Below, in pieces: positions 1,944-49,970 of a stretch of 64,000 nt of DNA. Under the pieces are notes generated by a model, which saw only the letters and a list, made by a program, of their open reading frames with translations, was not told where the DNA came from and ran no database searches. The DNA is taken from contig NZ_JAPSLK010000006.1 in assembly GCF_031180885.1 (NCBI RefSeq), forward strand, positions 1 to 64,000. The letters are read 5' to 3'. The first letter of the stretch is position 1. Each line of letters starts with the position of its first letter. The stretch comes from Saccharothrix sp. GTDB taxonomy: Bacteria > Actinomycetota > Actinomycetes > Mycobacteriales > Pseudonocardiaceae. Made by a program: the position numbers and the translations under genes.

Positions 1944-2013
1944 GGACATCCCCACCGCCGGACCGGGGGCTTCCCGGATGGATCTTGGTGGGTGCCGGCG
2001 GCAGGCTGCCCGC

Positions 2014-3096: not shown

Positions 3097-3100
3097 GGAC

Positions 3101-3775
3101 TCAGGCGAGGTCGGACAGCCACTGCTCGACACCGGCCACGTGGACCGTCGACCACGAACGGGCCAGCTCGGTCTGGTGAGCTGCCAGGGCGTCGACGATG
3201 GCGCGGTGTTCCGCCACGGTGCGGTCCACCGCGCCGGCCTGCGTGATGCCGCGCCAAATGCGGACCCGGACGGTGGGGCCGGCCAGGGTGTCCAGGAGTT
3301 GGGCGAGGTAGGCGTTGCCCGAGCACTGGGCGATGGCGCGGTGGAACTCCAGGTCGTGCTCCACCAGCTCCTCCACCGACCGCGCGTGCTCGGCGGCGTC
3401 GCACAGGGTGCGCAGGGAGGCGATCTCCTCCGCTCCGACCCGTTGGGCGGCCATCGCCGCGGCGGCCGGTTCGAGGATGCGCCGGACCTGGAGGACCTCC
3501 AGCACCGAGTCCTCGCCCCGGTGGAGGTCCAGCACGAACGACAGCGCGCCCAGCAGGTCGTCCGCGCGCAGGCTGGAGACGTAGGTCCCGTCGCCCTGCC
3601 GCACGTCCAGCACCCTGACCAGCGACAACGCCTTCACGGCCTCGCGCAGCGAGTTGCGGGACAGGCCCAGGCGCTCGGCCAGGTCCGCCTCGCGCGGCAG
3701 TCGGTCGCCCGGCTTCAGCTCACCGGACGTGATCATTTCCTTCACGCGCAGGATCGCGTCGTCGGTGACCGCCAC
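3101..3775 (-). CDS. FadR-type GntR transcriptional regulator
   Basis: 224 residues if started at GTG 3775, which has GGAGG 7 bases upstream; an upstream in-frame ATG at 3823 adds 16 residues without a better ribosome site. The N-terminal winged helix contains READLAERLGLSRNSLREAVKAL. The C-terminal helical FCD ligand domain shows the metal/ligand residues in HDLEFHRAIAQCSGN and VAEHRAIVDAL. FCD regulators usually respond to small organic acids or sugar acids. It is divergent from nagA but could instead control the sugar-lactone operon further left; an aldonate ligand would suit that. The palindrome at 3887-3901 is a possible operator. Confidence 0.85.
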   Translation of the reverse strand: MAVTDDAILRVKEMITSGELKPGDRLPREADLAERLGLSRNSLREAVKALSLVRVLDVRQGDGTYVSSLRADDLLGALSFVLDLHRGEDSVLEVLQVRRILEPAAAAMAAQRVGAEEIASLRTLCDAAEHARSVEELVEHDLEFHRAIAQCSGNAYLAQLLDTLAGPTVRVRIWRGITQAGAVDRTVAEHRAIVDALAAHQTELARSWSTVHVAGVEQWLSDLA

Positions 3776-3932: not shown

Positions 3933-3948
3933 AATGGTCTGGACCATT
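3933..3948. promoter_or_regulatory. DasR operator (dre) before nagA
   Basis: AATGGTCTGGACCATT has seven-base inverted arms and matches 13 of 16 positions of the Streptomyces dre consensus ACTGGTCTAGACCACT. It ends 12 bases before the nagA start codon and just before the AGGAGG ribosome site, where bound DasR would block transcription. In Streptomyces nagA is an established DasR target released by glucosamine-6-phosphate. Confidence 0.85.
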
Positions 3949-3960
3949 TGAGGAGGGACC

Positions 3961-5160
3961 TTGGACACGGTTGTCGCAGCTCCGCGAGCACTGCTCGGTC
4001 GCACCATCACCGGTCCCGCCAGCGTGCGCATCAGGGCGGGACGGGTGGTCGAGGTCGTGACGGGCGAACCGCCCGCCGACGCCGAGGTGCTGGCCGACGG
4101 GCTGCTCACCCCGGGCCTGGTGGACGTGCAGGTCAACGGGGCGGTGGGCGTCGACTTCGCCGAGGTGGACGACGAGGGCATGCGCGTCGTCGCCAAGGCC
4201 TTCCCGCAGACCGGCGTGACCCGCTTCGTGCCCACGCTGATCACCGCGCCCGTCCCCGAGGCGTTGCGCCAGGCCCGGGCCGTGCTGGCGGCTTCGGCCG
4301 CGCTGCCCGCCGGCTCCGGCGCGGTGCCGCTCGGGGTGCACCTGGAAGGGCCGTTCCTGTCGCCCAAGCGCGCGGGCGTGCACGACCCGGCGCTGATGGT
4401 GGACCCCGGGCCGGGCGAGATCGACCTGCTGCTGGCCGACGACCTGCGCGGACACCTGCGCATGGTGACCCTCGCGCCCGAGCAGCCCGGCGGCCTGGAG
4501 GCCGTGCGGCGCTTGTCGGAGGCGGGCGTCCTGGTCGCCGTCGGGCACAGCGACGCGACCGGCGAGCAGACGCGGGCGGCGGCCGAGGCCGGCGCGCGCA
4601 TGGTGACCCACCTGTTCAACGCCCAACGCCCCCTCGGGCACCGCGAACCCGGCGTGCCGGGCGTGGCCCTGGTGGACGACCGGTTCACGTTGGGCCTGAT
4701 CGCCGACCTGGCCCACGTCGGCCCCGACGTGTGCAGGTTGGTCTTCAACGCCGCCGGCCCCCGGGTCGCCCTGGTGACCGACGCGGTCGCGGCGGCCGGG
4801 ATGCCTCCGGGCCGCTACCAGCTCGGCGGCGCGGACGTGGTCCTGACCGAGGACGGCGTGCCGCGCTCGCCCGAGGGCACCATCGCCGGCAGCGCCCTGA
4901 CCCTGGACCGGGCCGTGCGCAACATCGTTTCGGTCGGCGTGGACCTGGCGGACGCGCTGGCGTCGGCCACGATCGTCCCGGCGGACGTGCTCGGCGAACC
5001 CACCCTGGGCCGCCTGGCGCCGGGCGCGGTCGCCGACCTGGTCTGGTGGGACGACCACCTCAAGCCCCGCAAGGTCTGGGTGAACGGCGAGGTCGTCTTC
5101 GACGCAACGGCCGACACCTCGATCGACGTGACCACGGAACTCGCCGCCGCCCGCCAGTAA
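3961..5160 (+). CDS. nagA: N-acetylglucosamine-6-phosphate deacetylase
   Basis: 399 residues, full length for NagA. The start is TTG 3961 with AGGAGG at 3951-3956; no ATG or GTG nearby fits. Amidohydrolase-fold landmarks are present: LEGPFLSPKRAGVHDP (metal Glu and substrate residues), VAVGHSDAT, THLFNAQRPLGHREPG and the catalytic Asp in LVTDAVAAAGMPPG. It removes acetate from GlcNAc-6-phosphate to give glucosamine-6-phosphate, the step between uptake and deamination, and the product is the known effector of DasR. It is monocistronic here, with a dre just upstream and a strong hairpin terminator 8 bases after the stop. Confidence 0.95.
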   Translation: MDTVVAAPRALLGRTITGPASVRIRAGRVVEVVTGEPPADAEVLADGLLTPGLVDVQVNGAVGVDFAEVDDEGMRVVAKAFPQTGVTRFVPTLITAPVPEALRQARAVLAASAALPAGSGAVPLGVHLEGPFLSPKRAGVHDPALMVDPGPGEIDLLLADDLRGHLRMVTLAPEQPGGLEAVRRLSEAGVLVAVGHSDATGEQTRAAAEAGARMVTHLFNAQRPLGHREPGVPGVALVDDRFTLGLIADLAHVGPDVCRLVFNAAGPRVALVTDAVAAAGMPPGRYQLGGADVVLTEDGVPRSPEGTIAGSALTLDRAVRNIVSVGVDLADALASATIVPADVLGEPTLGRLAPGAVADLVWWDDHLKPRKVWVNGEVVFDATADTSIDVTTELAAARQ

Positions 5161-5500: not shown

Positions 5501-6544
5501 TCAGCGGGTGCGCGTGACCTTCTTCAGGCCGCGCGGGCTGTCCGGGTCGCCGCCGCGCGCCAACGCCAAGCCGTGGGCCAGGCGCTGCACGGGCAGGATC
5601 TCCAGGATCGGCGCGACCTCCTCGGCCGTCTCCGGCACGGGGATGCGCAGCACCGCCGACACCTCGTCCGCCGCCGACCCGACCGCCACGACGTCCGCGC
5701 CCCGCCCGTGCACCACGTCAAGGACGTCGTGCAGCGCGTCCCCACCCCGCCCGGCACTGGTGATCGCCAGCACCGCCGTCTCCGGGTCCACCGCCGCCAC
5801 CGGACCGTGCAGCAGGTCCGCCCCCGAGTACGCCCGAGCCGCCAGGTAACTGGTCTCGGCCAGCTTCAAAGCAGCCTCCAACGCGGACGGCAGCGAGTAC
5901 CCCCGGCCAGTGGTCAGCACCCGGTCCACGAACCGGTAGCGCTGCACGGCCTCGGCCACCGCGTCCGCCGACAGCTCCAGCGCCGCCGCGGCCTGGTCGC
6001 CCAGCGCCGCCGCGTGCGCCCCATTTCCACCACGGATGGCGTCGACCAACAAGTACAGCGCGAGCAGGGTCGCCGAGTACGTCTTGGTCGCCGCCACGGC
6101 CTGCTCGACGCCCGCGCCGACGTCGACCGACAGCTCCGCCGCGCCGTTCAACGGGGAGTCCGCCGTGTTGGTCACCGCCACGGTCAGCGCCCCGCGCGCC
6201 CGCGCGGACTCGGTGACCTCCAGCAGGTCGGGCGACCCGCCGCTCTGGCTCACCGACACCAGCAGCACGTCGCGCAGGTCGGGCTGCGCGCCGTAGAGCG
6301 TCGTGGTGGAGGGGGACACCAGACCGGCGGGCAGTTGGAGCAGCACCTCGGTCAGGTACTTCGCGTACAGGGCCGCGTGGTCGGACGAGCCGCGTGCCGC
6401 GAGCAGCACGAAGCGCGGCTGACGGGCGCGGATCGCGTCCGCGACGGCCGCGATGGAGGAGCGCCGGGCGACCAGGTCCGCGAAGATCGCGGGCTGCTGG
6501 TCGATCTCGGCCGCCATGTGCCTGCCGGGCTGGTGGTCGGTCAT
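5501..6544 (-). CDS. Double SIS-domain protein, probable glucosamine-6-phosphate deaminase (NagB-II/AgaS type)
   Basis: 347 residues from ATG 6544. Two sugar-isomerase (SIS) domains can be seen, about residues 30-165 (LLAARGSSDHAALYAKYL, SVSQSGGSPDLLE) and 200-335 (TTGRGYSLPSALEAALKLAETSYLAA). The C-terminus DSPRGLKKVTRTR resembles the end of the isomerase half of GlmS. There is no glutaminase domain. Such proteins deaminate glucosamine-6-phosphate to fructose-6-phosphate (NagB-II) or handle related amino sugars. It is the last gene of the dasABC-like operon, 12 bases after the GH3 gene, the position that nagB holds in Streptomyces coelicolor, so it probably replaces classical NagB. Confidence 0.8.
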   Translation of the reverse strand: MTDHQPGRHMAAEIDQQPAIFADLVARRSSIAAVADAIRARQPRFVLLAARGSSDHAALYAKYLTEVLLQLPAGLVSPSTTTLYGAQPDLRDVLLVSVSQSGGSPDLLEVTESARARGALTVAVTNTADSPLNGAAELSVDVGAGVEQAVAATKTYSATLLALYLLVDAIRGGNGAHAAALGDQAAAALELSADAVAEAVQRYRFVDRVLTTGRGYSLPSALEAALKLAETSYLAARAYSGADLLHGPVAAVDPETAVLAITSAGRGGDALHDVLDVVHGRGADVVAVGSAADEVSAVLRIPVPETAEEVAPILEILPVQRLAHGLALARGGDPDSPRGLKKVTRTR

Positions 6545-6556
6545 CGGAGCCCTTTC

Positions 6557-7969
6557 TCAGCTGGCGGCGATGCGCTCTGCCGCGGCACGCAGGCACACCC
6601 GTGAACCGCCGTGGGTGTTCACGCGGGCAGCGGTGCCCAGGTCGGGACCCGGCACGCCGGTCTCGACGTGCACTAGGTCTAGACCAATACTAACCAGCGA
6701 GAGGACCAGGTCGCGAGCCCACGGGTGGCGATGTGCCTCTCTCGTCACCACCACGATGGTCCTCCCGTCCGCCTGCGCCGCAACCTCGTCGACAGTCCTG
6801 GCGTTCGACGTGACAGTCCCCGGCACCAGCTCGGCCAGGTACGGCCCCAGCCCCCACGGCACGTCCCCCACCGCGATGGACGGCTCGACCGCCAGGTCCA
6901 GCACCAGCGGCGCCCCGGACAGCGTCAACGACCCGGTCACCTCGATCGCCCGCCGCGCCGCGCGCATCCCGATCTCCGGGTCGTGCCCGTCCACGGCCGC
7001 CGGCGGGGTGCCCAGCGCCGCCGTGCGCCGCGCCGCCTCCTCCAGCCGCTCCCGGGACAGCTCGCCCCGCTCCACGGCCGCCACGATGCTGTCCACCAGC
7101 CACTGGATGCCCGCGTCGTCCAACGGCTCGCCGCCCAGGCACAACGCGTCCACCCCGGCGACCAGCGCCCGCACGGACCCCTCCGCCAGGTCACCGCCAA
7201 CGGCCTTCATGTCCAGCCCGTCGGTGATGATCGCCCCGGTGAAGCCCAGCTCGTCGCGCAGCACGGCCACCGCGCGCGGGTTGAGCGTGGCGGGCGCGTC
7301 GCCCCACGCCGGCACCACGAGGTGCCCGGTCATGATCGACCGCACCCCCGCCTGCACCGCCGCCCGGAACGGCACCAGCTCGACCTCGCGCAGCTCCTCC
7401 TCCGTGCGCGGCAGCACCGGCACGGCCAGGTGCGAGTCCACACTGGACGCGCCGTGGCCCGGGAAGTGCTTGGCGCACGCAGCCACGCCGACCGCCTGCA
7501 TGCCCTCCACGAACGCCGCCACGTGCGCGCCCGCCTTCGCCGGGTCCGACCCGAACGACCGCACGCCGATCACCGGGTCCTCCAGCGTCAGCACCAGGTC
7601 CGCCGAGGGCGCCAGGTCCAGGCTCACCCCGCACGCCGCGAGCCGCGCCCCGACCGACGCCGCCACCTCGCGGGTCAGCGCGAGGTCGTCCGCCGCGCCC
7701 AGCGCGTGGTTGCCCGGCACCTCCGACCCGCGCCCCGCGTCGAGCCGGGTGACGTCGCCGCCCTCCTCGTCGATGCCGATCACGACGTCCGGCCGCACCC
7801 CGCGCAACGCGGCCGTCAGCGCCGTGACCTGCTCGTCGTCCACGACGTTGCGGCCGAACAGCACCACCCCGCCCAGTCCGTCCGCGACCCGCTTGAGCAG
7901 CCAGTCCGGTGCGGTCGTGCCGTGGAAACCCGGAAGCAGCACAGCTGCGGCGAGCTGGTGCAACGACAT
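6557..7969 (-). CDS. Glycoside hydrolase family 3 beta-N-acetylglucosaminidase (NagZ/DasD-like)
   Basis: 470 residues, no signal peptide, so intracellular. GH3 signatures: GGVVLFGRNV, VIGIDEEGGDVTRL, the NagZ-type loop AKHFPGHGASSVDSH (about residues 165-179, with the His/Asp pair that acts as acid/base) and the nucleophile Asp in ITDGLDMKAV (about 250). A C-terminal domain of about 120 residues follows the barrel. It would release GlcNAc from imported chitooligosaccharides or muropeptides. It lies between the permeases and the SIS-domain gene in one operon (4-base and 12-base gaps). A perfect GGTCTAGACC lies inside its 3' coding region. Confidence 0.88.
   Translation of the reverse strand: MSLHQLAAAVLLPGFHGTTAPDWLLKRVADGLGGVVLFGRNVVDDEQVTALTAALRGVRPDVVIGIDEEGGDVTRLDAGRGSEVPGNHALGAADDLALTREVAASVGARLAACGVSLDLAPSADLVLTLEDPVIGVRSFGSDPAKAGAHVAAFVEGMQAVGVAACAKHFPGHGASSVDSHLAVPVLPRTEEELREVELVPFRAAVQAGVRSIMTGHLVVPAWGDAPATLNPRAVAVLRDELGFTGAIITDGLDMKAVGGDLAEGSVRALVAGVDALCLGGEPLDDAGIQWLVDSIVAAVERGELSRERLEEAARRTAALGTPPAAVDGHDPEIGMRAARRAIEVTGSLTLSGAPLVLDLAVEPSIAVGDVPWGLGPYLAELVPGTVTSNARTVDEVAAQADGRTIVVVTREAHRHPWARDLVLSLVSIGLDLVHVETGVPGPDLGTAARVNTHGGSRVCLRAAAERIAAS
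6673..6688. promoter_or_regulatory. Intragenic dre-like site in the GH3 gene
   Basis: The palindromic core GGTCTAGACC (6676-6685) is identical to the dre core; the 16-mer matches 12 of 16 consensus positions. It lies near the 3' end of the GH3 gene, about 130 bases before the SIS-domain gene, and encodes GLDL. Bound DasR could act as a roadblock or control an internal promoter for the last gene; chance in coding DNA is also possible. Confidence 0.5.
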
Positions 7970-7973
7970 GCGC

Positions 7974-8792
7974 CTACCCCTTCACGGCACCGGCGGTGAC
8001 ACCGGTGACCATCTTGCGCTGGACGACGAGGAAGAACACCAGGACCGGCAGCGTGAACAGCGCCGACGCGGCCATCGCGCCGCCCCAGTCGGTGCCGAAC
8101 GCGCTCTGGAACCCGGAGAGCCACACCGGCAGCGTCTCCTTGGTCTGGTCCTTGATCAGCGACAGGGCGTAGAGGAACTCGTTCCACGCCGTGACGAACG
8201 CGAACACCGAGGTGGCCACCAGGCCCGGGCCGAGCAGCGGCAGCGTGACGCGGCGGAACGCGCCCCACCGGCCGCAGCCGTCGACCATCGCGGCCTCCTC
8301 CAGCTCCAGCGGGATGCCGTTGACGAACCCGCGCAGCGTCCACGCGCAGAACGGCAGGGTCACCGCGAAGTAGATGAGGATCAGCGACGGCAGCCGGTCC
8401 AGCAGCTCCAGGTCCCGCATCATCAGGAACATCGGGATCAGCAGCGCCTCGAACGGCGCCATCTGCGCGACCAGCATCAGCAGCACGAACTGCTTGCGGC
8501 CCTTGAACCGCATCCGGGACATCGCCAGCGCGGCGAGCAGGCCCACGACGATCGACGCGACCACCGCGCCCAGCGTCACGAACAGGCTGTTGCCCATCGA
8601 GCTGAGGAACCCGGGCTTGTTCCACGCCGTCGCGAAGTTGGTCGCGGTGACCGACAGCGGGATCAGGTCGTAGTCGGTGGACACCAGGTCCTTGGTCGGC
8701 TTGAACGCCGAGGACAGCATCCAGTAGACGGGGAACGCGAAGAACACCGCCAGGACGATGCCGACGACGTTGGCCGTGACCTTCTTCGTCAC
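7974..8792 (-). CDS. ABC sugar permease, MalG/DasC-like
   Basis: 272 residues from GTG 8792, which overlaps the preceding permease stop (GTGA) and follows AGGAGG. Six membrane helices are predicted. The EAA loop that contacts the ATPase is visible as ELEEAAMVDGCGRWGAFRRVTLPLLGPG (about residues 168-195). This is the second permease of a carbohydrate uptake type 1 system. No ATPase gene lies in the operon, which is normal for systems served by a shared MsiK-type ATPase. The context (DasR, GH3, NagA) points to chitobiose or GlcNAc as substrate. Confidence 0.88.
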   Translation of the reverse strand: MTKKVTANVVGIVLAVFFAFPVYWMLSSAFKPTKDLVSTDYDLIPLSVTATNFATAWNKPGFLSSMGNSLFVTLGAVVASIVVGLLAALAMSRMRFKGRKQFVLLMLVAQMAPFEALLIPMFLMMRDLELLDRLPSLILIYFAVTLPFCAWTLRGFVNGIPLELEEAAMVDGCGRWGAFRRVTLPLLGPGLVATSVFAFVTAWNEFLYALSLIKDQTKETLPVWLSGFQSAFGTDWGGAMAASALFTLPVLVFFLVVQRKMVTGVTAGAVKG

Positions 8793-9772
8793 AGTGACCC
8801 CTCCTGGCGGAGCAGGCGGCGCAGGTACTGGAAGGTGAGCAGCCCGAGCAGGACCATCATCACCACCGACACCGCCGCGGCCACGCCGAAGTGGCTCTTG
8901 GAGATGCCTTCCAGGTACTGGTAGACCGGCAGCGTGGTGCTCGCGCCGTCCGGGCCGCCCTTCTTGAACGCCCAGATCTGGGCGAAGACCTTGAAGTCCC
9001 ACAGCAGGGACAGGAACGTGACCATGAGCAGCAGCGGGCGGATCTCGGGCCACGTGACGGCGCGGAAGGTCTGCCACGCGGACGCCCCGTCGATGCCGGC
9101 CGCCTCGTACTGCTCGCGCGGGATGCCGATCACGCCCGCGTACAGCGAGAACGCCAGGAACGGCACCGCCTGCCACACGATCAGCAGTCCGATCACGGAC
9201 AGCGTGGACGTGCCGGTGGTGAACCACGAGAACCCGGCGAAGGAGTCGAAGCCCAGCTTGACCAGGGTCTTGTTGAGGATGCCGTACTGCTGGTCGAAGA
9301 TCCACTGGTAGACCGTGGTCGCCGCGAGCAGCGGCATCGCCCAGGCCAGCAGCATCGCGACCTGCAGCGCGATCCGCACCACCGGGCTGATCTGCCGCAT
9401 CAGCAGCGCGATCAGCAGGCCCGCCACCACCGAGACCGCCACCACGGCCGCCGTGAACACCACGGTGCGGACCGTGATCGTCCAGAACTCCGGCTCGGCG
9501 AAGATCTTCGCGTAGTTGTCGACGCCGACCCAGACGACCTGGCCCCGGGTCAGCTCCTTGAGGTTGAGCTGGCGGAAGCTCGTCACGAGCAGGGACAGGA
9601 CCGGCCAGCCGATCAGCCACAGGATGGCGACCAGCGCGGGGGCCAGCAGCAGGTAGGGCAGCGTCCGGTCGAAGGCGCTGCCCCGCCGGCGCGGCGCGCC
9701 GCCCGGTGCGGCACGCCGCGGTGCCGACGAGGTCGTCGGCACCGCGGCGTCGGTGGTGTGGACCGCCGTCAT
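8789..9772 (-). CDS. ABC sugar permease, MalF/DasB-like
   Basis: 327 residues from ATG 9772. An N-terminal cytoplasmic tail of about 35 residues rich in Ala, Pro and Arg precedes six membrane helices. The EAA loop reads REQYEAAGIDGASAWQTFRAVTWPEI. It pairs with the following permease to form the channel for the binding protein encoded just upstream (7-base gap). The stop codon overlaps the start of the next gene, indicating translational coupling. Confidence 0.88.
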   Translation of the reverse strand: MTAVHTTDAAVPTTSSAPRRAAPGGAPRRRGSAFDRTLPYLLLAPALVAILWLIGWPVLSLLVTSFRQLNLKELTRGQVVWVGVDNYAKIFAEPEFWTITVRTVVFTAAVVAVSVVAGLLIALLMRQISPVVRIALQVAMLLAWAMPLLAATTVYQWIFDQQYGILNKTLVKLGFDSFAGFSWFTTGTSTLSVIGLLIVWQAVPFLAFSLYAGVIGIPREQYEAAGIDGASAWQTFRAVTWPEIRPLLLMVTFLSLLWDFKVFAQIWAFKKGGPDGASTTLPVYQYLEGISKSHFGVAAAVSVVMMVLLGLLTFQYLRRLLRQEGSL

Positions 9773-9779
9773 GCTGAGG

Positions 9780-11063
9780 TCATCCGCCCAGGGTCTTGGA
9801 GAGGGCGGCGTTGGCGTCGGCCGTGGCCTGGTCCAGCGACTTCGCGCCGGTCAGGTAGGCGGTCAGCATGTCCTTCAGCGGGTTCTGGCCGGCCTCGACC
9901 GCGGCCCAGGCGGGCGTGGTCGGGGTGACCTTGCCGTTCGGGGCGGACTCGGCGAGCGCCTTGCCCAGCGGGGTGGTGGCGAGCTTGGCGGTGTCCTTCG
10001 AGGTGCCCGGCACCGCGCCGCCCTCGGCCAGCATGTCCTGGTACTTCTTGCTGCTCAGCAGCTTCAGGTAGGCCTTGGCCAGGTCCTGGTTCTTCGAGCC
10101 CGCCGGGACGGCCAGGTTCGAGCCGCCGAGGAAGACCGGCGCGGTCTTGCCCGAGGTCTTGGACGGGATCGGGAACGCCGAGGTCTTGTCCTTCAGGGTC
10201 GGGTCGGCCTTGACGGCGCTGCCCAGCTCCCACGGGAGGCCGATCATCATCGCGGTCTTGCCCTTGGCGAAGACCTCGAACTGCTGCGGGGTGGCCTCGT
10301 CGGCGTCCTTCGGGGCCTTGGTGCCGGAGGTGTCGACCAGCTTCTTGTAGAAGTCGACGCCCGCCTTGGCCTCGGGGGTGTTCAGCGCGCCGGCCCACGC
10401 GGAGCCCTGCGCCTTGGCCACGTCGCCGCCCTCGTCCCAGATGAAGGACAGCAGCGCGTACCAGGACTGGCCCGGCAGGTACAGGGCCTGGAACTCCGGG
10501 TCCGCCGCGTTGGCGGCCTTCAGCTTCTCGATGGCCGCGACCCACTCGTCACGGGACTTCGGGGTGTTCTCGACGCCCGCGGCCTTGAACAGGTCGGTCC
10601 GGTAGATCACCGTGCGGTTCGCGGCGTAGAACGGCATGCCGTACTGCTTGCCGTCCCAGGTCAGGGAGTCCTTGAGGCCGGACAGCCACTGGTCGCCGTT
10701 GAGGGTCGAGACGTCGCCGCTCAGGTCGAGCAGGGTCTCCTCAGCCGCGAACTTCGCCGTCTGGGTGTTGCCCAGCTCGATGACGTCCGGCGGGTTGTTG
10801 CTGGTCAGAGCGGTGGTCAGCTTCTCCTGGATGCCGTTCCACTTCTGGATCTCGTACTTGACGGTGACGCCGGGGTTCGAGTCCTGGAACTCCTTGTGCA
10901 ACGCGTCGGTCAGGGTGGTCGGCGCGGAGCCGTCCATCAACCAGACGGTCAGCGTCTTGGGTTCACCGGAGTTGCCGCTGCCCTTGTCGGTGCTCGTGCC
11001 ACATCCGGCCACGGCCACCGCGAGTGCGGCGGCACCTACGGCCAGTCCTCTCCAGCCCTTCAC
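9780..11063 (-). CDS. dasA: ABC sugar-binding lipoprotein, DasA-like
   Basis: 427 residues from GTG 11063; starting further up would place extra polar residues before the signal peptide. The signal peptide ends in the lipobox VAGC (Cys about residue 18), so the mature protein is membrane anchored. The body is a family 1 solute-binding protein (TVWLMDGSAPT, ANRTVIYRTDLFKAAGV, GLPWELGSAVK). First gene of the operon and divergent from dasR, exactly as dasA lies beside dasR in Streptomyces, where DasA binds chitobiose. The dre in the shared intergenic region supports control by GlcN-6-P. The ligand is assigned by context, not by residues. Confidence 0.85.
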   Translation of the reverse strand: MKGWRGLAVGAAALAVAVAGCGTSTDKGSGNSGEPKTLTVWLMDGSAPTTLTDALHKEFQDSNPGVTVKYEIQKWNGIQEKLTTALTSNNPPDVIELGNTQTAKFAAEETLLDLSGDVSTLNGDQWLSGLKDSLTWDGKQYGMPFYAANRTVIYRTDLFKAAGVENTPKSRDEWVAAIEKLKAANAADPEFQALYLPGQSWYALLSFIWDEGGDVAKAQGSAWAGALNTPEAKAGVDFYKKLVDTSGTKAPKDADEATPQQFEVFAKGKTAMMIGLPWELGSAVKADPTLKDKTSAFPIPSKTSGKTAPVFLGGSNLAVPAGSKNQDLAKAYLKLLSSKKYQDMLAEGGAVPGTSKDTAKLATTPLGKALAESAPNGKVTPTTPAWAAVEAGQNPLKDMLTAYLTGAKSLDQATADANAALSKTLGG

Positions 11064-11111: not shown

Positions 11112-11127
11112 AGTGGTGTAGACCAAT
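11112..11127. promoter_or_regulatory. DasR operator (dre) between dasA and dasR
   Basis: AGTGGTGTAGACCAAT fits the dre consensus except for a G in place of C in the left half. It lies 49 bases before the dasA start and about 200 before dasR, so it mainly covers the dasA promoter and could also report on dasR. The same arrangement exists in Streptomyces. Confidence 0.8.
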
Positions 11128-11325: not shown

Positions 11326-12087
11326 ATGCTGGAGACGAGCCCGGCAACCGGCGTCGACGCCAGGTCTCGCGCACAGCGCGAGCCGAAGTACTGGGGCCTC
11401 AAGCGGCACCTGCTCGACCTGCTGCGCGCGCTGCCGCCGGGATCACCGATCCCGACCGAGCGCTCGCTCGCCGCGGAGTTCGACGTGTCGCGCACGACCG
11501 TGCGGCAGGCCCTGGCCGAGCTGACCGTCGAAGGACGGCTGCTGCGCGTGCAGGGCAAGGGCACGTTCGCGGCGGAACCCAAAGTGGCGCAACGACTTCA
11601 GCTGTCGTCGTACACAGAGGACATGAAGGCACAGGGCCGGCAGCCGTCGTCGCGGTTGATCGAGGCGTCGGAGATGCCCGCGGAGGCGGAACTGGCGCGG
11701 CTGCTGGGTGTGCGGGCGGGCGCGAAAGTGTTGCGCTTGCACCGCCTGCGGTTGGCCGACGGTGAGCCGATGGCCATCGAGACCACGCACTTGGCGCTCG
11801 GGCGGTTCCGGGGGCTGCGGCGGTACCTGGCGCCGGGGGCGTCGCTGTACCAGGTGCTGCGGGAGCGGTTCGGGGTCGAGATGGGGCACGCCGAGGAGAC
11901 CATCGAGACGGCCCTGGCGTCGCCGGAGGAGGCGGAGCTGTTGGGCGCGGACATCGGCCTGCCGATGCTCCTGCTGTCCCGGCACTCCTTCGACACCGAG
12001 GGCAACCCGGTCGAGTGGGTCCGCTCGGTGTACCGCGGCGACCGCTACAAGTTCGTGGCGACCCTCAACCGCCCGGTGTCCGACTGA
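11326..12087 (+). CDS. dasR: GntR/HutC-family regulator DasR
   Basis: 253 residues from ATG 11326 with GAGGAGG at 11314-11320. The N-terminal winged helix (about residues 20-90) reads [28 protein letters not shown] and [21 protein letters not shown]; the C-terminal UTRA ligand domain contains [36 protein letters not shown] and [19 protein letters not shown]. As far as I can recall the Streptomyces protein, these blocks match it closely. DasR represses amino-sugar uptake and catabolism, and elsewhere antibiotic and chitinase genes, until glucosamine-6-phosphate binds. It is divergent from the dasA operon. Autoregulation through the dre at 11112 is possible. Confidence 0.93.
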
Positions 12088-43412: not shown

Positions 43413-43894
43413 ACGACATCGACCCGCGCGATGACCGCAGAGGCCATGAGGACACCGCTGTCCTCACCGAGCTGAACCGGTTGGTGTACGAGCTGGACGC
43501 GCCACCGGCGGGGCTGGTCGAACGCATCCAGTTCGCGGTGGCCCTGGAGAACCTGGACGTGGAGGTGGCCCGCTGGGAGCGGGCGGGGTCGTTCGCGGGT
43601 GTCCGCGGCGGCAACCCGGGGACCATCACGTTCACGGTCGACAACCTGACCCTGATGGTGAACTTCACCTCGACCGGCGCGCGCCACCGCATCGACGGCT
43701 GGCTCGTCCCCGCGGGTGAGCACACCGTGGAGGTGCGGGTGGCCGAGCACGAGTCGAGCACGACGAAGGCCGACGACGGCGGCCGGTTCGTGCTGTCGGA
43801 CGTGCCCGCGGGCACCACGCAGATCGTGGTGCACCTGGTGAACTCCCGCGGCGAACCGGGCCGCACGGTGGTCACGCCGACGATCATGTTGTAG
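43409..43894 (+). CDS. Sigma-factor partner with C-terminal carboxypeptidase-regulatory-like domain
   Basis: 161 residues from GTG 43409 overlapping the sigma stop (GTGA). The N-terminal half is helical (TAVLTELNRLVYELDAPPAGLVERIQFAVALENLDVEVARWE); the C-terminal half is beta-rich (TITFTVDNLTLMVNFTSTGARHRIDGWLVPAGEHTVEVRVAEHESSTTKADDGGRFVLSDVPAGTTQIVVHL), like CarboxypepD_reg/SdrD-B modules. No membrane helix or zinc motif. It may sense or transmit a signal to the sigma factor; inferred only from coupling. Its end overlaps the convergent phosphoesterase by 11 bases. Confidence 0.7.
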   Translation: MNDIDPRDDRRGHEDTAVLTELNRLVYELDAPPAGLVERIQFAVALENLDVEVARWERAGSFAGVRGGNPGTITFTVDNLTLMVNFTSTGARHRIDGWLVPAGEHTVEVRVAEHESSTTKADDGGRFVLSDVPAGTTQIVVHLVNSRGEPGRTVVTPTIML

Positions 43895-44651
43895 GCCGCC
43901 ACCCACCGACGAGTGCCCCAACCGGCACGACGTGGGTGGCCCCGTCGGTGAGGTGCAGCAGGAACGCCGGTGGCTCGTGCAGGAAGCCCATCGGCCCGTC
44001 CGGCCGCAGCGTGAGCCTGCTCTGCCGGTGCGTGCTGGGGGCGACGCACACCACCGTGCCCGCGAACGGCGCGGTCACCGCCCGGTGCACGTGCCCGACC
44101 AGCACCCGCGCGACGTGGGGGTGCCTCCGCAGCACCTCCGCGAGCCGGTCACCGTCTTCCAGCCGGATGCCGTCGAGGAACGGGATGCCGACGTCGAACG
44201 GCGGGTGGTGCAGGCACACGAACGCGGGTTGCTCCCGAGAGGCCAGCACCTCGTCCAACCACGCGAGTTGCTCCGCGCCCAGCAGCCCGCCCGCGCTGTC
44301 CGGCCGCCACGAGTCGAGCACGATCACGCTGAAGCCCGCGTGGTCCACGACGTACCGCGTGTCGTGCGTGCCGCCGAGGAACGGTGTGCCGCCGAAGACC
44401 CGCGTCAGACCGGGCGCGTCGTCGTGGTTGCCCATCACGAGGTGGACGGGCAGCGGGTAGCCGTCGAGCAGGCCGGCGAGTTGGGTGTAGGCGTCGTGCC
44501 GGTACTCCGACAGGTCGCCGGTGATCACCACGCAGTCCGGCCGCGGGTCCAGCGCCAGCACGGCCCCGAGCGCGCGGTGCAGGGCGGCGGCGGGTTCGGC
44601 GGCGACGGCGTCGGTGCGCAGGTGCGGGTCGCTGAGGTGTGCGATCGACAT
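43884..44651 (-). CDS. Calcineurin-like metallophosphoesterase (CpdA/Icc type)
   Basis: 255 residues from ATG 44651. The five metallophosphatase motifs are complete: SDPHLR, VITGDLSEY, VMGNHDDAP, VCLHHPPFD and LVGHVHRA. Class III cyclic-nucleotide phosphodiesterases have this layout, so cAMP or another phosphodiester is a reasonable substrate. Monocistronic and divergent from cutC. Confidence 0.88.
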   Translation of the reverse strand: MSIAHLSDPHLRTDAVAAEPAAALHRALGAVLALDPRPDCVVITGDLSEYRHDAYTQLAGLLDGYPLPVHLVMGNHDDAPGLTRVFGGTPFLGGTHDTRYVVDHAGFSVIVLDSWRPDSAGGLLGAEQLAWLDEVLASREQPAFVCLHHPPFDVGIPFLDGIRLEDGDRLAEVLRRHPHVARVLVGHVHRAVTAPFAGTVVCVAPSTHRQSRLTLRPDGPMGFLHEPPAFLLHLTDGATHVVPVGALVGGWRPTT

Positions 44652-44732: not shown

Positions 44733-44748
44733 TATGGTCTAGACCATG
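44733..44748. promoter_or_regulatory. DasR operator (dre) over the cutC start
   Basis: TATGGTCTAGACCATG contains the perfect palindrome ATGGTCTAGACCAT and the exact dre core GGTCTAGACC. The cutC ATG is 44746-44748, inside the site. TATGGT at 44733-44738 is well placed as a -10 box for a transcript starting at the A of ATG, so the gene may be leaderless with DasR bound across promoter and start. Confidence 0.85.
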
Positions 44749-45399
44749 CTTGAGGTTATCGCTCTCGACGCGGTTGATGCCGAAGCCGCCCAGGCCGGTG
44801 GAGCGCACCGGCTCGAACTCGTCACCGACATGGCCGCCGACGGCCTGACGCCCCCGCCCGCCCTGCTCAAGAGCGTGCTCGCGGCGACCGACCTGCCCGT
44901 CCGGGTCATGCTCCGCGACGCCGCCGGGTTCACGCCCGGCGACCTCGACGGCCTACGCCGCGCCGCCGCCACCGCGCGGGAAGCCGGCGCGACCGAATTC
45001 GTCCTCGGCTTCCTCGACGCCCACGGCAACATCGACGAAGAAGCCTGCCGCGCCGTCCTCGAAGAAATCGACGGCTGCGCCTGGACCTTCCACCGCGCCC
45101 TCGACAACTCCGCCGACCCCCGCCGGGCCTGGGACGTCGTCGCCGACCTCGGCTGCGACACCGTCCTCGCGGCCGGCTCACCCAAGGGCGTCGCGGACGG
45201 CATGGACGTCCTCGCAGACCTCGCCGCCCGCCGGCAAAGGGTCACGCTCCTCGTCGGCGGCGGCCTCAAGCAAGAGCACGTCGGACCGCTCAAAGCCTTG
45301 GGTGCCACGGCCTTCCACGTCGGGAGCGCGGTTCGGCCCGGCGGGTGGGCCGCGTCGCTGTCCGCCGATGCCGTCCGGACCTGGGCGAATCTGGTCTAG
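44746..45399 (+). CDS. cutC: CutC family protein in an amino-sugar operon
   Basis: 217 residues from ATG 44746; the start MLEVIALDAVDAEAAQAGGAHRLELVTDMAADGLTPP aligns with the normal CutC N-terminus, so no upstream start is needed. Further blocks: VRVMLRDAAGFTPGD, GFLDAHGNIDEEACRAVLEEIDG, TFHRALDNSADPRRAWD and AGGSP-like AAGSPKGVADG. A TIM barrel, linked to copper tolerance in E. coli although that role is disputed. There is no ribosome site. dre sites cover both its start and its stop, and the next genes are a sugar importer and a hexosaminidase, suggesting a role in amino-sugar metabolism. Confidence 0.9.
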   Translation: MLEVIALDAVDAEAAQAGGAHRLELVTDMAADGLTPPPALLKSVLAATDLPVRVMLRDAAGFTPGDLDGLRRAAATAREAGATEFVLGFLDAHGNIDEEACRAVLEEIDGCAWTFHRALDNSADPRRAWDVVADLGCDTVLAAGSPKGVADGMDVLADLAARRQRVTLLVGGGLKQEHVGPLKALGATAFHVGSAVRPGGWAASLSADAVRTWANLV

Positions 45400-45405
45400 A
45401 CCGTT
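45390..45405. promoter_or_regulatory. DasR operator (dre) over the cutC stop, before the second importer
   Basis: TCTGGTCTAGACCGTT with the exact core GGTCTAGACC (45393-45402). The TAG in its centre is the cutC stop codon. It lies 78 bases before the binding-protein gene, so it can control a promoter of its own for the transporter operon. Confidence 0.85.
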
Positions 45406-45482: not shown

Positions 45483-46775
45483 ATGCGAGTTGCCAACAGG
45501 GTGGCCGCGGCGGCGGGGTTCGCCGCCGCGGTGCTCGCCGTGACGGGGTGCGCCCCGGTCCAGTCCGGCCCGGCCGCGACCGGCGCCGACCAGCAGACCG
45601 GGCAGCTCCGCGTCTGGCTGTTCGACGAGGTCAACCGGGGTCCCAAGGAGGCCGTGGTCAAGGAGGCGGTGACCGAGTTCCAGAACGCCCACCAAGGGGT
45701 CACCGTCGACGTCCAGTACATCCAGGTCCAGACCCGCGCCGAGCGCTTCAAGGCCGCCTTCAGCGACCCCAAGAGCGCCCCGGACGTCGCCGAGTTCGGC
45801 AACACCGACCTCGCCGGCTACGTCGCGGGCGGCGGGTTCACCGACCTCGACCTGTCCGGCTGGGCCGACGCCAAGGACCTCCTGCCCGCCGTCCTCGACA
45901 CCGGCAAGGTCGACGGCGAGGTCTACGGCCTGCCCTGGTACGTCGGCGTCCGCGCCCTCTACTACCGCACCGACGTCTTCAACGAACTCGGCCTCAAGCC
46001 CCCGACGACCCTGGACGAGATCGCGCCCATCGCCCGCAAGGTCCGCGAGTCCAAGCCGGACATGCTCGGCATCTCCGCCGGCGGCAAGTACACCTACGGC
46101 GCCATGCCGTTCGTGTGGGCCAACGGCGGCGACATCGCCCGCAAGGACGGCGACAAGTACGTCTCCACCATCGACAGCGCCGAGTCCAAGGCGGGCCTGC
46201 GCCAGTACACCGAGCTGATCGCCGACGACATCTGCCCGCCCGCCCAGTGCGCCGGCAACGGCGGCGACGCCAGCGTCGAGGCGTTCCGCGCGGGCAAGGC
46301 GGCGATGGTCATCGGCGGCGACTTCAACCGCAAGTCCGTGGACGCCTCCAGCGCCGCGGGCAAGTACGCGGTCGTGCCGCTGCCGGGCAAGACGGCCGGC
46401 TCCATCGCGCCCGCGTTCTCCGGCGGCAACCTGCTCGGCGTCATGAAGGGCAGTGAGCGCAAGACGCTGGCCAAGGAGTTCGTCCAGCTCCTGGGCGGCA
46501 AGACCTACCAGCGCAAGATGTTCGACGCCATGGGCAACATGCCGACCTTCGCCGACGTGCAGAAGGCGGTCGCCGAGTCGCAGCCCGCCGTCGAGCCGTT
46601 CATCAAGACCCTGAACGCGGGCACCAAGTTCGTCCCGGTCACCCCGAACTGGGCCAAGATCGACGCCCAGGCCGTGCTGCCGACCCTCATCCAGGAGGTG
46701 GCCGCCGCGGGCAACGACCTCGACGTCGCGGCCAAGAAGGCGGCCGACGCGATGAACGCGGCGTTCGCTTCATGA
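45483..46775 (+). CDS. ABC sugar-binding lipoprotein (second amino-sugar importer)
   Basis: 430 residues from ATG 45483. Signal peptide with lipobox AVTGC (Cys about residue 22). Family 1 binding protein: LRVWLFDEVNRGPKEAVVKEAVTEFQ, SAPDVAEFGNTDLAGYVAGGGF, GLPWYVGVRALYYRTDVFNELGL, KAAMVIGGDFN, GGNLLGVMKGS. Related in design to the dasA product at 9780-11063, but only moderately similar. Directly after a dre and followed without gap by two permeases and GH20, so chitooligosaccharides, GlcNAc or another HexNAc are likely ligands. Confidence 0.87.
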   Translation: MRVANRVAAAAGFAAAVLAVTGCAPVQSGPAATGADQQTGQLRVWLFDEVNRGPKEAVVKEAVTEFQNAHQGVTVDVQYIQVQTRAERFKAAFSDPKSAPDVAEFGNTDLAGYVAGGGFTDLDLSGWADAKDLLPAVLDTGKVDGEVYGLPWYVGVRALYYRTDVFNELGLKPPTTLDEIAPIARKVRESKPDMLGISAGGKYTYGAMPFVWANGGDIARKDGDKYVSTIDSAESKAGLRQYTELIADDICPPAQCAGNGGDASVEAFRAGKAAMVIGGDFNRKSVDASSAAGKYAVVPLPGKTAGSIAPAFSGGNLLGVMKGSERKTLAKEFVQLLGGKTYQRKMFDAMGNMPTFADVQKAVAESQPAVEPFIKTLNAGTKFVPVTPNWAKIDAQAVLPTLIQEVAAAGNDLDVAAKKAADAMNAAFAS

Positions 46776-47734
46776 CCGACGTCCACCTCGACCCGCGCCC
46801 CGCGACCGGGGTGCGGGTCGACCCCGAAGCGCCGCGCCGGCCGCGGTGGAAGAGGAAACGGGGCGACGGCCCGATCGCCTTCGCCTACCTGACCCCGGCG
46901 CTGCTGGTGCTGGTGGGCCTCATGGGCTACCCGATCTACCAGCTCGTCCTGATCTCGCTGTTCGACTACGGCCAGGAGCAGGTCAGCGGTGGCGCGCCGC
47001 TGACCTTCCTGGGGCTGGCCAACTACGCCACCCTGCTGTCGGACGCGAAGTTCTGGACCGTCCTGGGCCAGACCGTCGGGTTCGCCGCGGTGTGCGTGGT
47101 CGGGACGCTGCTGGTCGGCGCCGCGCTGGCGGTGCTGGCCACCCGCGTCCGCACGTGGGCGCGGATGACGCTGTTCCTCGCCGCCCTCGGCGCGTGGGCC
47201 ACCCCGGCGGTGGCCGGCTCGACGATCTGGCTGTTCCTGTTCGACGCCAACTTCGGCTTCGTCAACGAACTCCTCGGCACCACCGGGTTCTCCTGGACCT
47301 ACGACCGCTGGATCGCGTTCGGCCTGGTCGCGGCGCAGGTGATCTGGTGCTCGTTCCCGTTCGTCATGGTGACCCTGTACGCGGGCATCAAGTCGATCCC
47401 GGGCGAGGTGCTGGAGGCGGCGGCCCTGGACGGCGCGTCGACGTTGCGCACGGCCCGCTCGGTGATCCTGCCGCTGCTGCGCCCGCTGCTGATCGTGGTG
47501 ACCATCCAGTCGATCATCTGGGACTTCAAGGTGTTCACCCAGATCTACATCATGACCAGCGGCGGCGGCATCGCCGGGCGCAACCTCGTGCTCAACGTCT
47601 ACGCCTACCAGCAGGCGTTCGCCGCCTCGGAGTACGGGCTGGGCGCGAGCATCGGCGTGGTGACGACCGTGCTCCTGCTGCTCATCACGCTCGGGTACCT
47701 GCGGGCGCTGCGGAAGTCGGGGGAACAGCTGTGA
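46772..47734 (+). CDS. ABC sugar permease, MalF-like
   Basis: 320 residues from ATG 46772 (ATGA overlap). A basic N-terminal tail (PRRPRWKRKRGDG) and six helices; EAA loop GEVLEAAALDGASTLRTARSVILPLL. Forms the channel with the next gene. No ATPase gene in the operon, as for the dasABC-like system, implying a shared MsiK-type ATPase. Confidence 0.9.
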   Translation: MTDVHLDPRPATGVRVDPEAPRRPRWKRKRGDGPIAFAYLTPALLVLVGLMGYPIYQLVLISLFDYGQEQVSGGAPLTFLGLANYATLLSDAKFWTVLGQTVGFAAVCVVGTLLVGAALAVLATRVRTWARMTLFLAALGAWATPAVAGSTIWLFLFDANFGFVNELLGTTGFSWTYDRWIAFGLVAAQVIWCSFPFVMVTLYAGIKSIPGEVLEAAALDGASTLRTARSVILPLLRPLLIVVTIQSIIWDFKVFTQIYIMTSGGGIAGRNLVLNVYAYQQAFAASEYGLGASIGVVTTVLLLLITLGYLRALRKSGEQL

Positions 47735-48564
47735 GGCGCGGACTGGTCGAGGGCGTCACGGTCCTCATCGCGGGCGTGGTGGCGTTCCCGCTGTACTGGA
47801 TGGTGCTCACCGCGCTCAAACCCGAGCACGAGGTCATCTCCGCCGACCCGCGGCCGTGGACGCTCGCGCCCACGTTCGACAGCTTCGTGCGGGCGCTGAC
47901 CGTGCAGAGCTTCGGGCGGTACCTGGTGAACAGCCTGGTGGTGGCGCTGGCCGTGGTGCTGCTGAGCCTGCTGATCTCGTTCCTGGCGGCGACGGCGCTG
48001 ACCCGCTTCCGGTTCCGCAGCCGCACGACCCTGCTGGTGATGCTGCTGGTCGTGCAGATGGTGCCGGTCGAGGCGCTGACCATTCCGCTGTTCTTCGTCA
48101 TGCAGTCGGTGCGGGACGTGGCGCCCGCGTTCGGCCTGAACCACCTGGGCTCGCTGGTGCTGGTGCACCTCGCGTTCAGCCTGCCGTTCGCGATCTGGAT
48201 GCTGCGCGGGTTCGTCGCCGCCGTGCCGGTGGAGTTGGAGGAGGCCGCGACCCTCGACGGCGCGTCCCGCTTCCGCTTCCTGTGGCAGGTGCTGTTGCCG
48301 CTGGTCGCGCCGGGCCTGGTGGCGACGAGCGTGCTGTCGTTCATCCACGCGTGGAACGACTTCCTGTTCGCCAAGACCTTCATCATCTCGGCGGCGGAGA
48401 ACCAGACGCTGCCGCTGGCGCTCCAGGTGTTCATCAAGCCCGACCAGAACGACTGGGGCGCGATCATGGCCGGGTCGACGCTGATGACGATCCCGGTGCT
48501 GGTGTTCTTCGTCCTGGTGCAGCGGCGACTCGTCGCGGGACTCGCGGGAGCGGTGAAGTCGTGA
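47731..48564 (+). CDS. ABC sugar permease, MalG-like
   Basis: 277 residues from GTG 47731 (GTGA overlap). Six helices beginning LVEGVTVLIAGVVAFPLYWMVLTALKP; EAA loop PVELEEAATLDGASRFRFLWQVLLPLVAPGL. Overlaps the GH20 start by four bases, so the four genes 45483-49970 are one translationally coupled unit. Confidence 0.9.
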   Translation: MRRGLVEGVTVLIAGVVAFPLYWMVLTALKPEHEVISADPRPWTLAPTFDSFVRALTVQSFGRYLVNSLVVALAVVLLSLLISFLAATALTRFRFRSRTTLLVMLLVVQMVPVEALTIPLFFVMQSVRDVAPAFGLNHLGSLVLVHLAFSLPFAIWMLRGFVAAVPVELEEAATLDGASRFRFLWQVLLPLVAPGLVATSVLSFIHAWNDFLFAKTFIISAAENQTLPLALQVFIKPDQNDWGAIMAGSTLMTIPVLVFFVLVQRRLVAGLAGAVKS

Positions 48565-49970
48565 TCATACCCAAGCCGGTGTCCTTCAACCAGGGCAAGG
48601 GTTCCCTCGTCTTCGACGGCACGGTCGACGTCCGCCCGTACGACGGCCCACCCGAGTCCTACCGCCTGACCGTCTCGTCGGAGGGCGTCACCGTCGAGGC
48701 GGCGGACGCGGCCGGCGAGTTCTACGCGCGGCAGACCCTGCGCCAGCTCGGCGGCCCGGACGCCTTCCGCGCCGCGCCGATCGGCGGCCCGCCGACCCTG
48801 CCGGTGTGCGTGGTGGAGGACCGTCCCCGCTTCGCCTGGCGCGGCGTGATGCTCGACGTGGCCAGGCACTTCCTGCCCAAGCCGGACCTGCTGCGCTACG
48901 TCGAACTCCTGGCCGTGCACAAGCTCAACGTCCTGCACCTGCACCTGACCGACGACCAGGGCTGGCGGTTCGAGTCGAAGAAGTTCCCGCGCCTGCACGA
49001 GATCGGCGGCTGGCGCCCGTCCTCCCGCTACGGTGACCGGCGCTACGGCGGCCGGACGAACCGACCACACGGCGGCTACTACACCCAGGACGACCTGCGC
49101 GAAGTCGTCGCCTACGCGGCGCAACGGCACATCACGGTGGTGCCCGAGATCGACGTCCCGGGCCACAGCCAGGCAGCCATCGCGGCCTACCCGGAACTGG
49201 GCGTGCAAGGCGGTGGCGTCTGGACCGACTGGGGCGTCAACCCCAACGTCCTCAAGGCCGACGAGTCCACTGTGGACTTCTACCGGCAGGTTTTCGACGA
49301 GCTGCTGGACGTCTTCCCGGCAGAGGTGATCGGGCTGGGCGGCGACGAGGCCGAGGGCGGCGACGGCCGGTTCGTCCGGCGCATCGCCCAGCACCTGGTG
49401 CGGCGCGGCCGGCGGCCGTACGGCTGGGACGAGGTGCTCGGCGTCGGACCGCTGCCGACGAAGACGGTGATCGCGTCCTGGCGCGGCGAGGAAGCCGGCC
49501 TGACCGCCCTCGAGCGGGGCCACGACGTCGTCATGTGCCCGGAGAAGCACGTGTACCTGGACTACCGCCAGTCCGACCGCGACGACGAACCCATCCCCGT
49601 CGGCACCGTCCTGACCTGGGAGGACGTCTACGCCTACGAACCGGCGGCCGCGGATCGGGTGCTCGGCGCGCAGGCGAACCTGTGGACCGAGCACCTCGAC
49701 TCCCCGCGGCGGCTGGACTACGCGGCTTTCCCCCGCTTGTGCGCCTTCGCCGAGGTGGTGTGGAGCCCCGTACCCCACACCACCCCGGCAACCCCCTTGT
49801 CCCCCGTGACGTCCCCGAGCACCCCCGCGCTCCGCGACGCCGAAGAGTTCCGCTCCCGCCTGACCCACCACCACCTGCCGAGGCTGGACGCCCTGGGCGT
49901 CGAGTACCGGCCCCTGTCCGGCCCGCGCCCGTGGCAGATGCTCCCCGGTGTGCCAGGCCACCCCCGCTAG
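48561..49970 (+). CDS. Glycoside hydrolase family 20 beta-N-acetylhexosaminidase
   Basis: 469 residues from GTG 48561, without signal peptide, so it should cut imported oligosaccharides in the cytoplasm. An N-terminal GH20b-like domain (about 1-95) precedes the barrel: RFAWRGVMLDVARHFLPKPDLLRYVELLAVHKLNVLHLHLTDDQGWR and VVPEIDVPGHSQAAIAAYPEL. The catalytic Asp-Glu pair is in VIGLGGDEAEGGD; the usual His of the HxGGDE motif is Leu here. Late motifs: GWDEVLG, WRGEEAG, GAQANLWTEHL. It releases terminal GlcNAc or GalNAc. Confidence 0.92.
   Translation: MIIPKPVSFNQGKGSLVFDGTVDVRPYDGPPESYRLTVSSEGVTVEAADAAGEFYARQTLRQLGGPDAFRAAPIGGPPTLPVCVVEDRPRFAWRGVMLDVARHFLPKPDLLRYVELLAVHKLNVLHLHLTDDQGWRFESKKFPRLHEIGGWRPSSRYGDRRYGGRTNRPHGGYYTQDDLREVVAYAAQRHITVVPEIDVPGHSQAAIAAYPELGVQGGGVWTDWGVNPNVLKADESTVDFYRQVFDELLDVFPAEVIGLGGDEAEGGDGRFVRRIAQHLVRRGRRPYGWDEVLGVGPLPTKTVIASWRGEEAGLTALERGHDVVMCPEKHVYLDYRQSDRDDEPIPVGTVLTWEDVYAYEPAAADRVLGAQANLWTEHLDSPRRLDYAAFPRLCAFAEVVWSPVPHTTPATPLSPVTSPSTPALRDAEEFRSRLTHHHLPRLDALGVEYRPLSGPRPWQMLPGVPGHPR

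Follow-up and report, generated by a model that had tools for sequence, protein, structure and literature searches.

The window analysed here, a 64,000-nucleotide stretch of a Saccharothrix sp. genome, carries a gene of the CutC family that is associated with two dre-type operators and followed by genes for a sugar importer and a β-N-acetylhexosaminidase (Table 1). The coordinates confirm the claim of the earlier note that one dre covers the cutC start codon and a second covers the stop codon. The same note described four coupled genes after cutC, encoding a sugar-binding protein (SBP), two permeases and a GH20 enzyme, and this was borne out by Pfam matches and by a 4-base overlap at each of the junctions from the SBP gene to the GH20 gene. 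The GH20 protein displays no signal peptide by eye and is thus probably cytoplasmic. In a genome-wide search, this cutC is the sole PF03932 match. The codon-usage gene caller placed its start at 44830; the open reading frame start at 44746 was taken for the alignment, fold and Pfam scans.

Table 1. Features of the window that relate to cutC and amino-sugar use
Feature	Position	Strand	Basis or remark
nagA, GlcNAc-6-P deacetylase	4045-5160	+	TIGR00221 240 bits, over cut-off 225.65; start may be further upstream
dre upstream of nagA	3933-3948	.	dre pattern match
SIS-domain protein, nearest GlcN-6-P deaminase NagB-II	5501-6544	-	199 bits, under equivalog cut-off 430
dre-like site	6673-6688	.	~130 bp upstream of SIS gene, within 3′ end of GH3 gene
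GH3, β-N-acetylhexosaminidase type	6557-7942	-	Pfam GH3 231 bits; NF003740 189 bits, under cut-off 207
dasABC-like importer: SBP and two permeases	7974-11018	-	homology
dre between dasR and dasABC	11112-11127	.	dre pattern match
dasR, presumed regulator	11326-12087	+	323 bits to S. coelicolor DasR structures 9i0v, 4zs8
dre 1, TATGGTCTAGACCATG	44733-44748	.	PWM 22.2; last three bases are the cutC ATG start
cutC, divergent actinobacterial subfamily, 217-aa TIM barrel	44746-45399	+	Pfam PF03932, 121 bits vs cut-off 23.3
dre 2, TCTGGTCTAGACCGTT	45390-45405	.	PWM 17.0; spans cutC TAG stop 45397-45399
Sugar ABC binding lipoprotein (SBP)	45483-46775	+	SBP_bac_8 and SBP_bac_1; start inferred (ATG 45483), ORF open from 45453
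ABC permease 1	46772-47734	+	BPD_transp_1
ABC permease 2	47731-48564	+	BPD_transp_1
GH20 β-N-acetylhexosaminidase	48561-49970	+	Glyco_hydro_20, 322 bits

The site at the cutC start has no mismatch to the dre 12-mer and the site at the stop has one. Dre 2 ends 77 bases ahead of the likely SBP start; since it falls at the beginning of the 83 bases that separate cutC from this gene, it is most likely the operator of the SBP gene rather than of cutC. That dre 1 includes the start codon points to a direct block of initiation by DasR. A simple promoter scan found no sigma-70-type promoter near cutC, and transcription of the gene may be leaderless. Divergent to cutC is a gene for a calcineurin-like phosphoesterase (43884-44651, minus strand), whose start is 81 bp from dre 1 and which could therefore share this operator. 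Among the 87 loci described below that do not belong to the Streptomyces group, only two have such a gene directly upstream of cutC.

The dasR gene is ~33 kb from cutC in the same window. A dre-type operator at cutC and a DasR encoded in the genome, two of the features that mark membership of the DasR regulon, are both present. At the nagA end of the window, genes for an aldo/keto reductase, an Amidohydro_2 protein and a GntR-FCD regulator adjoin nagA (172-3775), a trio that is presumably fucose-catabolism-like. A trio that resembles it by eye comes after cutC in another actinobacterial locus (L118). The two occurrences, beside nagA and after a cutC, give a hint of joint fucose and GlcNAc use.

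The 16-base dre pattern, with up to three mismatches, matches six times in the window against 0.49 expected, and none of 100 shuffles reached six. The exact 12-mer is present at six places in the 9.46 Mb genome. With one mismatch allowed there are 35 places vs 31 for a backwards-pattern control, and one-mismatch sites are therefore not proven by counts alone; the genome-wide one-mismatch count was set aside as uninformative and replaced by cross-species conservation and gene context. Eight of ten inspected dre loci outside the window, among the 35 places, adjoin amino-sugar or chitin genes (PTS enzyme I, EIIB/EIIA, GlmS-like, GH18, GH19, LPMO_10 and GH20). Ten proteins were scanned, from L002, L004, L005, L008, L010, L012, L014 and L016, with two each from L004 and L012; one GH18 is below its cut-off, with CBM_2 above cut-off. 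L003 and L007, each with an exact dre, display no obvious amino-sugar gene as judged by eye.

Conservation was surveyed in 161 cutC loci, consisting of the window and 80 loci from each of two genome sets. The Streptomyces group (L023-L096) comprises 74 loci, all labelled Streptomyces except three Kitasatospora and two labelled ‘Actinobacteria bacterium’. The remaining 87 divide into 58 with a short divergent CutC and 29 with a canonical CutC. One of the 58 (L164) is by gene order probably also from a Streptomyces genome and carries both CutC types, and two near-identical cutC pairs (L018/L141 and L022/L153) are each counted twice. With the codon-usage caller and an iterated search, cutC was seen in all 161 loci; these superseded a third-codon-GC caller with a single-pass search, which had found cutC in merely 120.

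Outside the Streptomyces group, a start dre with at most two mismatches is present in 41 of the 58 short-CutC loci, and in 23 of the 58 a dre is exactly at the stop codon. Seventeen of the 58 have no start dre. One locus (L150) displays the stop-codon site only. Eight loci of one genus (L098-L105) have neither a start dre nor HexNAc neighbours, and three of these carry a two-mismatch site just past the stop; by eye, their short CutC adjoins a large histidine-kinase-like protein and nitrate/taurine-type binding proteins. In eight others (L119-L125 and L129) a GH84-like gene is beside cutC or one gene off, and a dre was not seen. No dre was found at Nonomuraea cutC.

Forty published dre, selected from the PMC4398421 table, were used to build a position weight matrix (PWM); repeats, sites inside genes, sites of antibiotic or development genes and a few weak sites were left out. 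The 40 sites score 16.3-24.6, and the usual Streptomyces cutC site, ATTGGACTAGACCTGT, scores 23.7. The best site from -150 to +60 of each cutC was set against the 99th percentile reached by 2597 other genes of these loci. The test is conservative, since some of these background genes are neighbours with the same upstream region as cutC. The 99th-percentile level is exceeded by 72 of the 74 cutC genes of the Streptomyces group, by 27 of the 57 other short cutC genes (window excluded; 40/57 at the 95th percentile) and by none of the 29 canonical actinobacterial genes, although the loci are not independent, given the conserved synteny around groEL and the relatedness of the genomes. The survey for dre sites at actinobacterial cutC that the earlier note had proposed was thus positive for the short subfamily across genera and negative for canonical cutC. 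The exact 12-base core is present in 69 of the 74 Streptomyces-group loci, where the unanchored adjacent bases are also kept (A 100%, T 97%, T 91%) but the flanks are not. The exact 13-mer of the Streptomyces cutC site occurs once in each of four of five genomes and is absent from the fifth.

The cutC sites might be real operators that are bound by another HutC-type GntR regulator, whose inducer may differ from that of DasR. Seven UTRA-domain matches are found in the Saccharothrix genome. One of them is on contig C39 (L200, L012), where a second HutC-type GntR regulator is by genes for PTS EIIB and EIIA, with a dre between and an EIIC recognized by eye; this regulator could share the DasR operators. 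The main table of the S. coelicolor DasR ChIP-on-chip study, Table 1 of PMC4398421, taken without supplements, has no site with the Streptomyces cutC sequence. However, the cutC sites are within the score range of published DasR sites and dasR is in the window, and control by such a regulator has a low probability.

Hexosaminidase genes accompany the short cutC genes. In 44 of the 58 loci, cutC has a GH20 or GH84 gene no more than five genes away, GH84 being assigned by sequence clustering and reading of the sequence. Of the 87 loci that do not belong to the Streptomyces group, 35 contain an SBP cluster. Twelve amino-sugar and N-glycan families were also searched with reference proteins. For the 58 loci, matches are in 45 of 579 near genes vs 7 of 492 farther genes. 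The Streptomyces group displays no enrichment (3/672 near vs 43/567 farther genes), and its 46 matches are all MurQ-like; in eight examples these are 3.7-8 kb off, too far to count as cutC neighbours. With canonical actinobacterial CutC there is also no enrichment (4/288 near vs 6/223 farther genes; 4/29 loci). The idea that Streptomyces cutC belongs to a HexNAc operon fails, as none of the 74 loci has a hexosaminidase nearby. The second half of the proposed survey, that for HexNAc genes near cutC, therefore held for the short subfamily outside the Streptomyces group, and failed for that group and for canonical actinobacterial CutC. In L060 and L093, a MurQ-like SIS protein is beside an RpiR-type regulator in the same locus as the Streptomyces cutC.

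Seven loci (L097, L109, L115-L118 and L164) have a dre at cutC without an ABC operon. The order is dre, cutC, an O-methyltransferase-like gene and GH84 in L097; dre, cutC and GH20 in L109; and dre, cutC and a divergent GH20, secreted by eye, in L118. The dre travels with cutC and not merely with the importer. This bears on whether cutC is a hitch-hiker, in which case the start dre would belong to the importer operon as its distal operator, and CutC would have an unrelated housekeeping role. Conserved synteny around groEL could hold neighbours together without function. Against this, cutC has its own dre where there is no importer, in 72 of 74 Streptomyces-group loci and in the seven just listed; the hexosaminidases that come after cutC differ (GH20, GH84); and canonical CutC of other phyla is found in unrelated HexNAc loci, described below. 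A hitch-hiking cutC is considered quite improbable.

CutC proteins occur in a number of bacterial phyla, and the structure of the human homologue has been solved; to our knowledge, the family has no agreed function. The short subfamily forms one clan (support 100/99; 35 vs 45 rows) whose branch measures 1.47 changes per column; the canonical row L186, also long-branched, falls beside it with uncertain placement. Residues near-invariant in both groups include R22, E24, G33, P36, R57, G88, D97, H116, D120, G144, G173 and H191. Most of these are at or just behind the C-terminal ends of the predicted strands, and TIM barrels bind substrate at these ends. The two groups differ at two cysteine positions, which we take to be those proposed for copper in human CutC. 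Position 5 is Cys in 27 of 45 canonical rows and in none of 133 subfamily rows (Ile in 132), and position 26 is Cys in 40 of 45 and in 4 of 133 (Val in 115); the window protein has I5 and V26. The L195 CutC was dropped from these counts because of a doubtful open reading frame start. The window protein also fails the NCBIfam equivalog for copper homeostasis CutC, NF008603 (96.3 vs 311 bits).

A copper function is what the family annotation states, and CutC is counted in copper surveys, e.g. in the portion of PMC6769254 consulted. If CutC handles copper, its place in the DasR regulon would be incidental or would serve chitin-active copper enzymes (LPMOs). The best evidence for the copper name is that 20 of the 74 Streptomyces-group loci have a CopA-type ATPase gene no further than five genes from cutC, in 19 cases on the opposite strand; two of the ATPases were scanned and have HMA and E1-E2 ATPase domains. 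In addition, an LPMO_10 gene of the window genome is adjoined by an exact dre, and LPMO_10 proteins are copper enzymes. On the other hand, both cysteine positions are lost in the subfamily. The copA side also has its own palindrome, apart from the cutC operator: in four intergenic copA-cutC regions (L074, L075, L087 and L031), palindromes of the kind TATACCCC..GGGGGTAT or a variant, presumably CsoR boxes, lie towards copA, and a dre-like site lies towards cutC. Old copper phenotypes may be explained by an sRNA in the cutC 3′ end. In cutC regions of the E. coli type, the 3′ end indeed encodes an sRNA, according to the excerpt available (PMC6358824), and another CutC that lacks one essential cysteine was judged unlikely to bind copper, in the part of the article seen (PMC4993169); both weigh against copper. 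Overall, a copper function of this CutC appears very improbable.

The AlphaFold2 model of the window CutC (pLDDT 95.2) displays the CutC fold, with TM scores of 0.95 to 4r9x and 0.89-0.92 to 3iwp. The nearest non-CutC folds detected with Foldseek are MfnB (TM 0.80-0.83) and ribulose-phosphate 3-epimerase (TM 0.64-0.68), followed by a putative phosphonomutase, hexulose-phosphate synthase (HPS) and PdxS. Phosphate-binding TIM barrels have glycine loops after strands 7 and 8 and a short helix after strand 8. In the predicted structure, G171-G173 follow the strand 167-170, G193 follows 190-192, and a helical turn is at 194-196. The loop glycines are present in at least 132 of 133 subfamily rows, and canonical rows have mostly Ser, Thr or Ala at 193. 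In the model, both glycine loops resemble a phosphate site. No second Pfam family was found in the window CutC, even in a low-threshold scan, so that the link with sugar phosphates comes from the fold.

Canonical CutC of other phyla was followed in a plasmid collection with 39 CutC records. Eighteen were examined; of the 21 left out, 15 are from Escherichia, Salmonella, Klebsiella or Proteus. Ten of the 18 loci clearly have amino-sugar or N-glycan enzymes near CutC; this sample has no control for background and may over-represent catabolic islands. In three Hymenobacter loci a glycosylasparaginase gene overlaps CutC by 4 bases with a GH92 gene near, and one of these also has nagB and GH18. Persicobacter has a PNGase F open reading frame 12 bases behind CutC, and also GH92. 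NagA, nagB and ROK genes are found in Paracoccus, MurQ and ROK genes in Qingshengfaniella, and GH20 and GH38 genes in Photobacterium. Peteryoungia and two Rhizobium loci have GH20, with M81 in Peteryoungia and in the one Rhizobium scanned. Three further loci are suggestive: Asticcacaulis (BadF-type ATPase, GH2, GH3), Alkalihalophilus (L-asparaginase II, fucosidase, ROK) and Phocaeicola (fucosidase). The other five loci, from Parabacteroides, Enterococcus (two), Fusobacterium and Nonomuraea, yielded no such genes; Fusobacterium and Nonomuraea were assessed solely by eye. Next to canonical CutC or near it, M81 (MlrC-type) metallopeptidase-like genes are found repeatedly (L133, L134, L157, L160, L163, L188, L189, L195 and L197), often with ROK or peptide ABC genes. 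A Xanthomonas CutC is part of a predicted VirK interaction network that contains N-glycan genes, in the section of PMC5700972 seen.

These neighbours raise the question of whether CutC acts at C1 of an unphosphorylated sugar, as a GlcNAc mutarotase or as a glycosylamine hydrolase that follows glycosylasparaginase, PNGase or hexosaminidase. The 4-base overlap in Hymenobacter, the closely spaced PNGase F in Persicobacter and the BadF-type or ROK kinase-family genes adjacent or close to CutC are consistent with such a reaction. However, the fold neighbours are mostly sugar-phosphate enzymes, and the MurQ and NagA/NagB contexts require no such step; a C1 reaction is regarded as unlikely.

The interpretation favoured here, and considered likely, is that this CutC is a cytoplasmic DasR-regulon enzyme of GlcNAc/HexNAc catabolism and not a copper protein. 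Several results speak against it: the S. coelicolor table lacks the Streptomyces cutC site, 17 of the 58 loci lack a start dre, Streptomyces cutC has no hexosaminidase nearby, canonical actinobacterial CutC displays no enrichment, and 20 of the 74 Streptomyces-group loci have a CopA-type ATPase near cutC. A function in amino-sugar catabolism is well supported by context. Action of the protein on an amino sugar or an amino-sugar phosphate is plausible, a phosphorylated amino sugar being the probable substrate. The arrangement of operators and genes, its conservation, the lost cysteines and the predicted fold are observed; DasR occupancy, the role in the pathway and the substrate are what we infer, as follows. 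DasR on dre 1 would block transcription at the cutC start codon, and DasR on dre 2 would block the importer-GH20 unit. As amino-sugar phosphates rise, the two units would open together; the importer would take in HexNAc oligosaccharides, GH20 would cleave them and CutC would handle the monomer pool. CutC may bind a phosphorylated GlcNAc derivative (GlcNAc-6-P or GlcN-6-P) via the GGG and G-S loops of strands 7 and 8, and might isomerise the bound sugar to its anomer or epimer by means of E24, R57, H116 and H191, invariant residues located at the barrel mouth. Substrate and reaction are proposed from the fold and the conserved residues; the isomerase reaction, taken on its own, is speculative and rather doubtful.

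A broader hypothesis is that all CutC proteins, from bacteria to the human homologue, are misnamed amino-sugar enzymes with a phosphate-binding TIM barrel, of which the actinobacterial subfamily was captured by DasR. This is possible but somewhat less probable than its opposite, and it is weakened by the lack of enrichment near canonical actinobacterial CutC. Part of the same hypothesis, and just as tentative, is that GlcNAc from chitin, N-glycans and peptidoglycan is the source that CutC as a whole processes.

If the favoured reading is right, CutC, now counted in copper surveys, would be re-annotated, and the DasR regulon would gain a gene. This regulon ties chitin feeding to development and antibiotic production. 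The regulatory and genomic link with GlcNAc provides a short, testable list of substrates for CutC. The earlier note knew of no description of CutC as a DasR target, and none came to light: in the literature searched, mainly open-access texts without supplements, no paper names cutC as such a target or links CutC of PF03932 with DasR or GlcNAc, and the words are absent from four DasR or chitin papers searched by term, among them PMC12370203, PMC11180011 and PMC11076491.

With the CutC structures of PF03932 (3iwp, 1twd, 4r9x and 2bdq), the window protein has the TIM barrel in common, at 25-30% identity in structural alignment, and with canonical CutC rows it shares R22, E24, R57, H116, D120 and H191. 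It differs from canonical CutC in that it belongs to a separate long-branch clan and lacks the cysteines and the RPR motif. MfnB (MJ1099) and ribulose-phosphate 3-epimerase have a like fold at about 17-22% identity, a comparison by fold and not by catalytic residues. Features common to the Streptomyces DasR regulon and dasABCD are the dre consensus, dasR, and an ABC importer with an intracellular β-N-acetylglucosaminidase (PMC4398421; PMC12370203, in the part seen), as well as nagA, PTS and chitinase targets, as far as the portions seen describe them. Unlike Streptomyces dasABCD, the window has a second importer-GH20 unit, headed by a cutC gene with its own dre.
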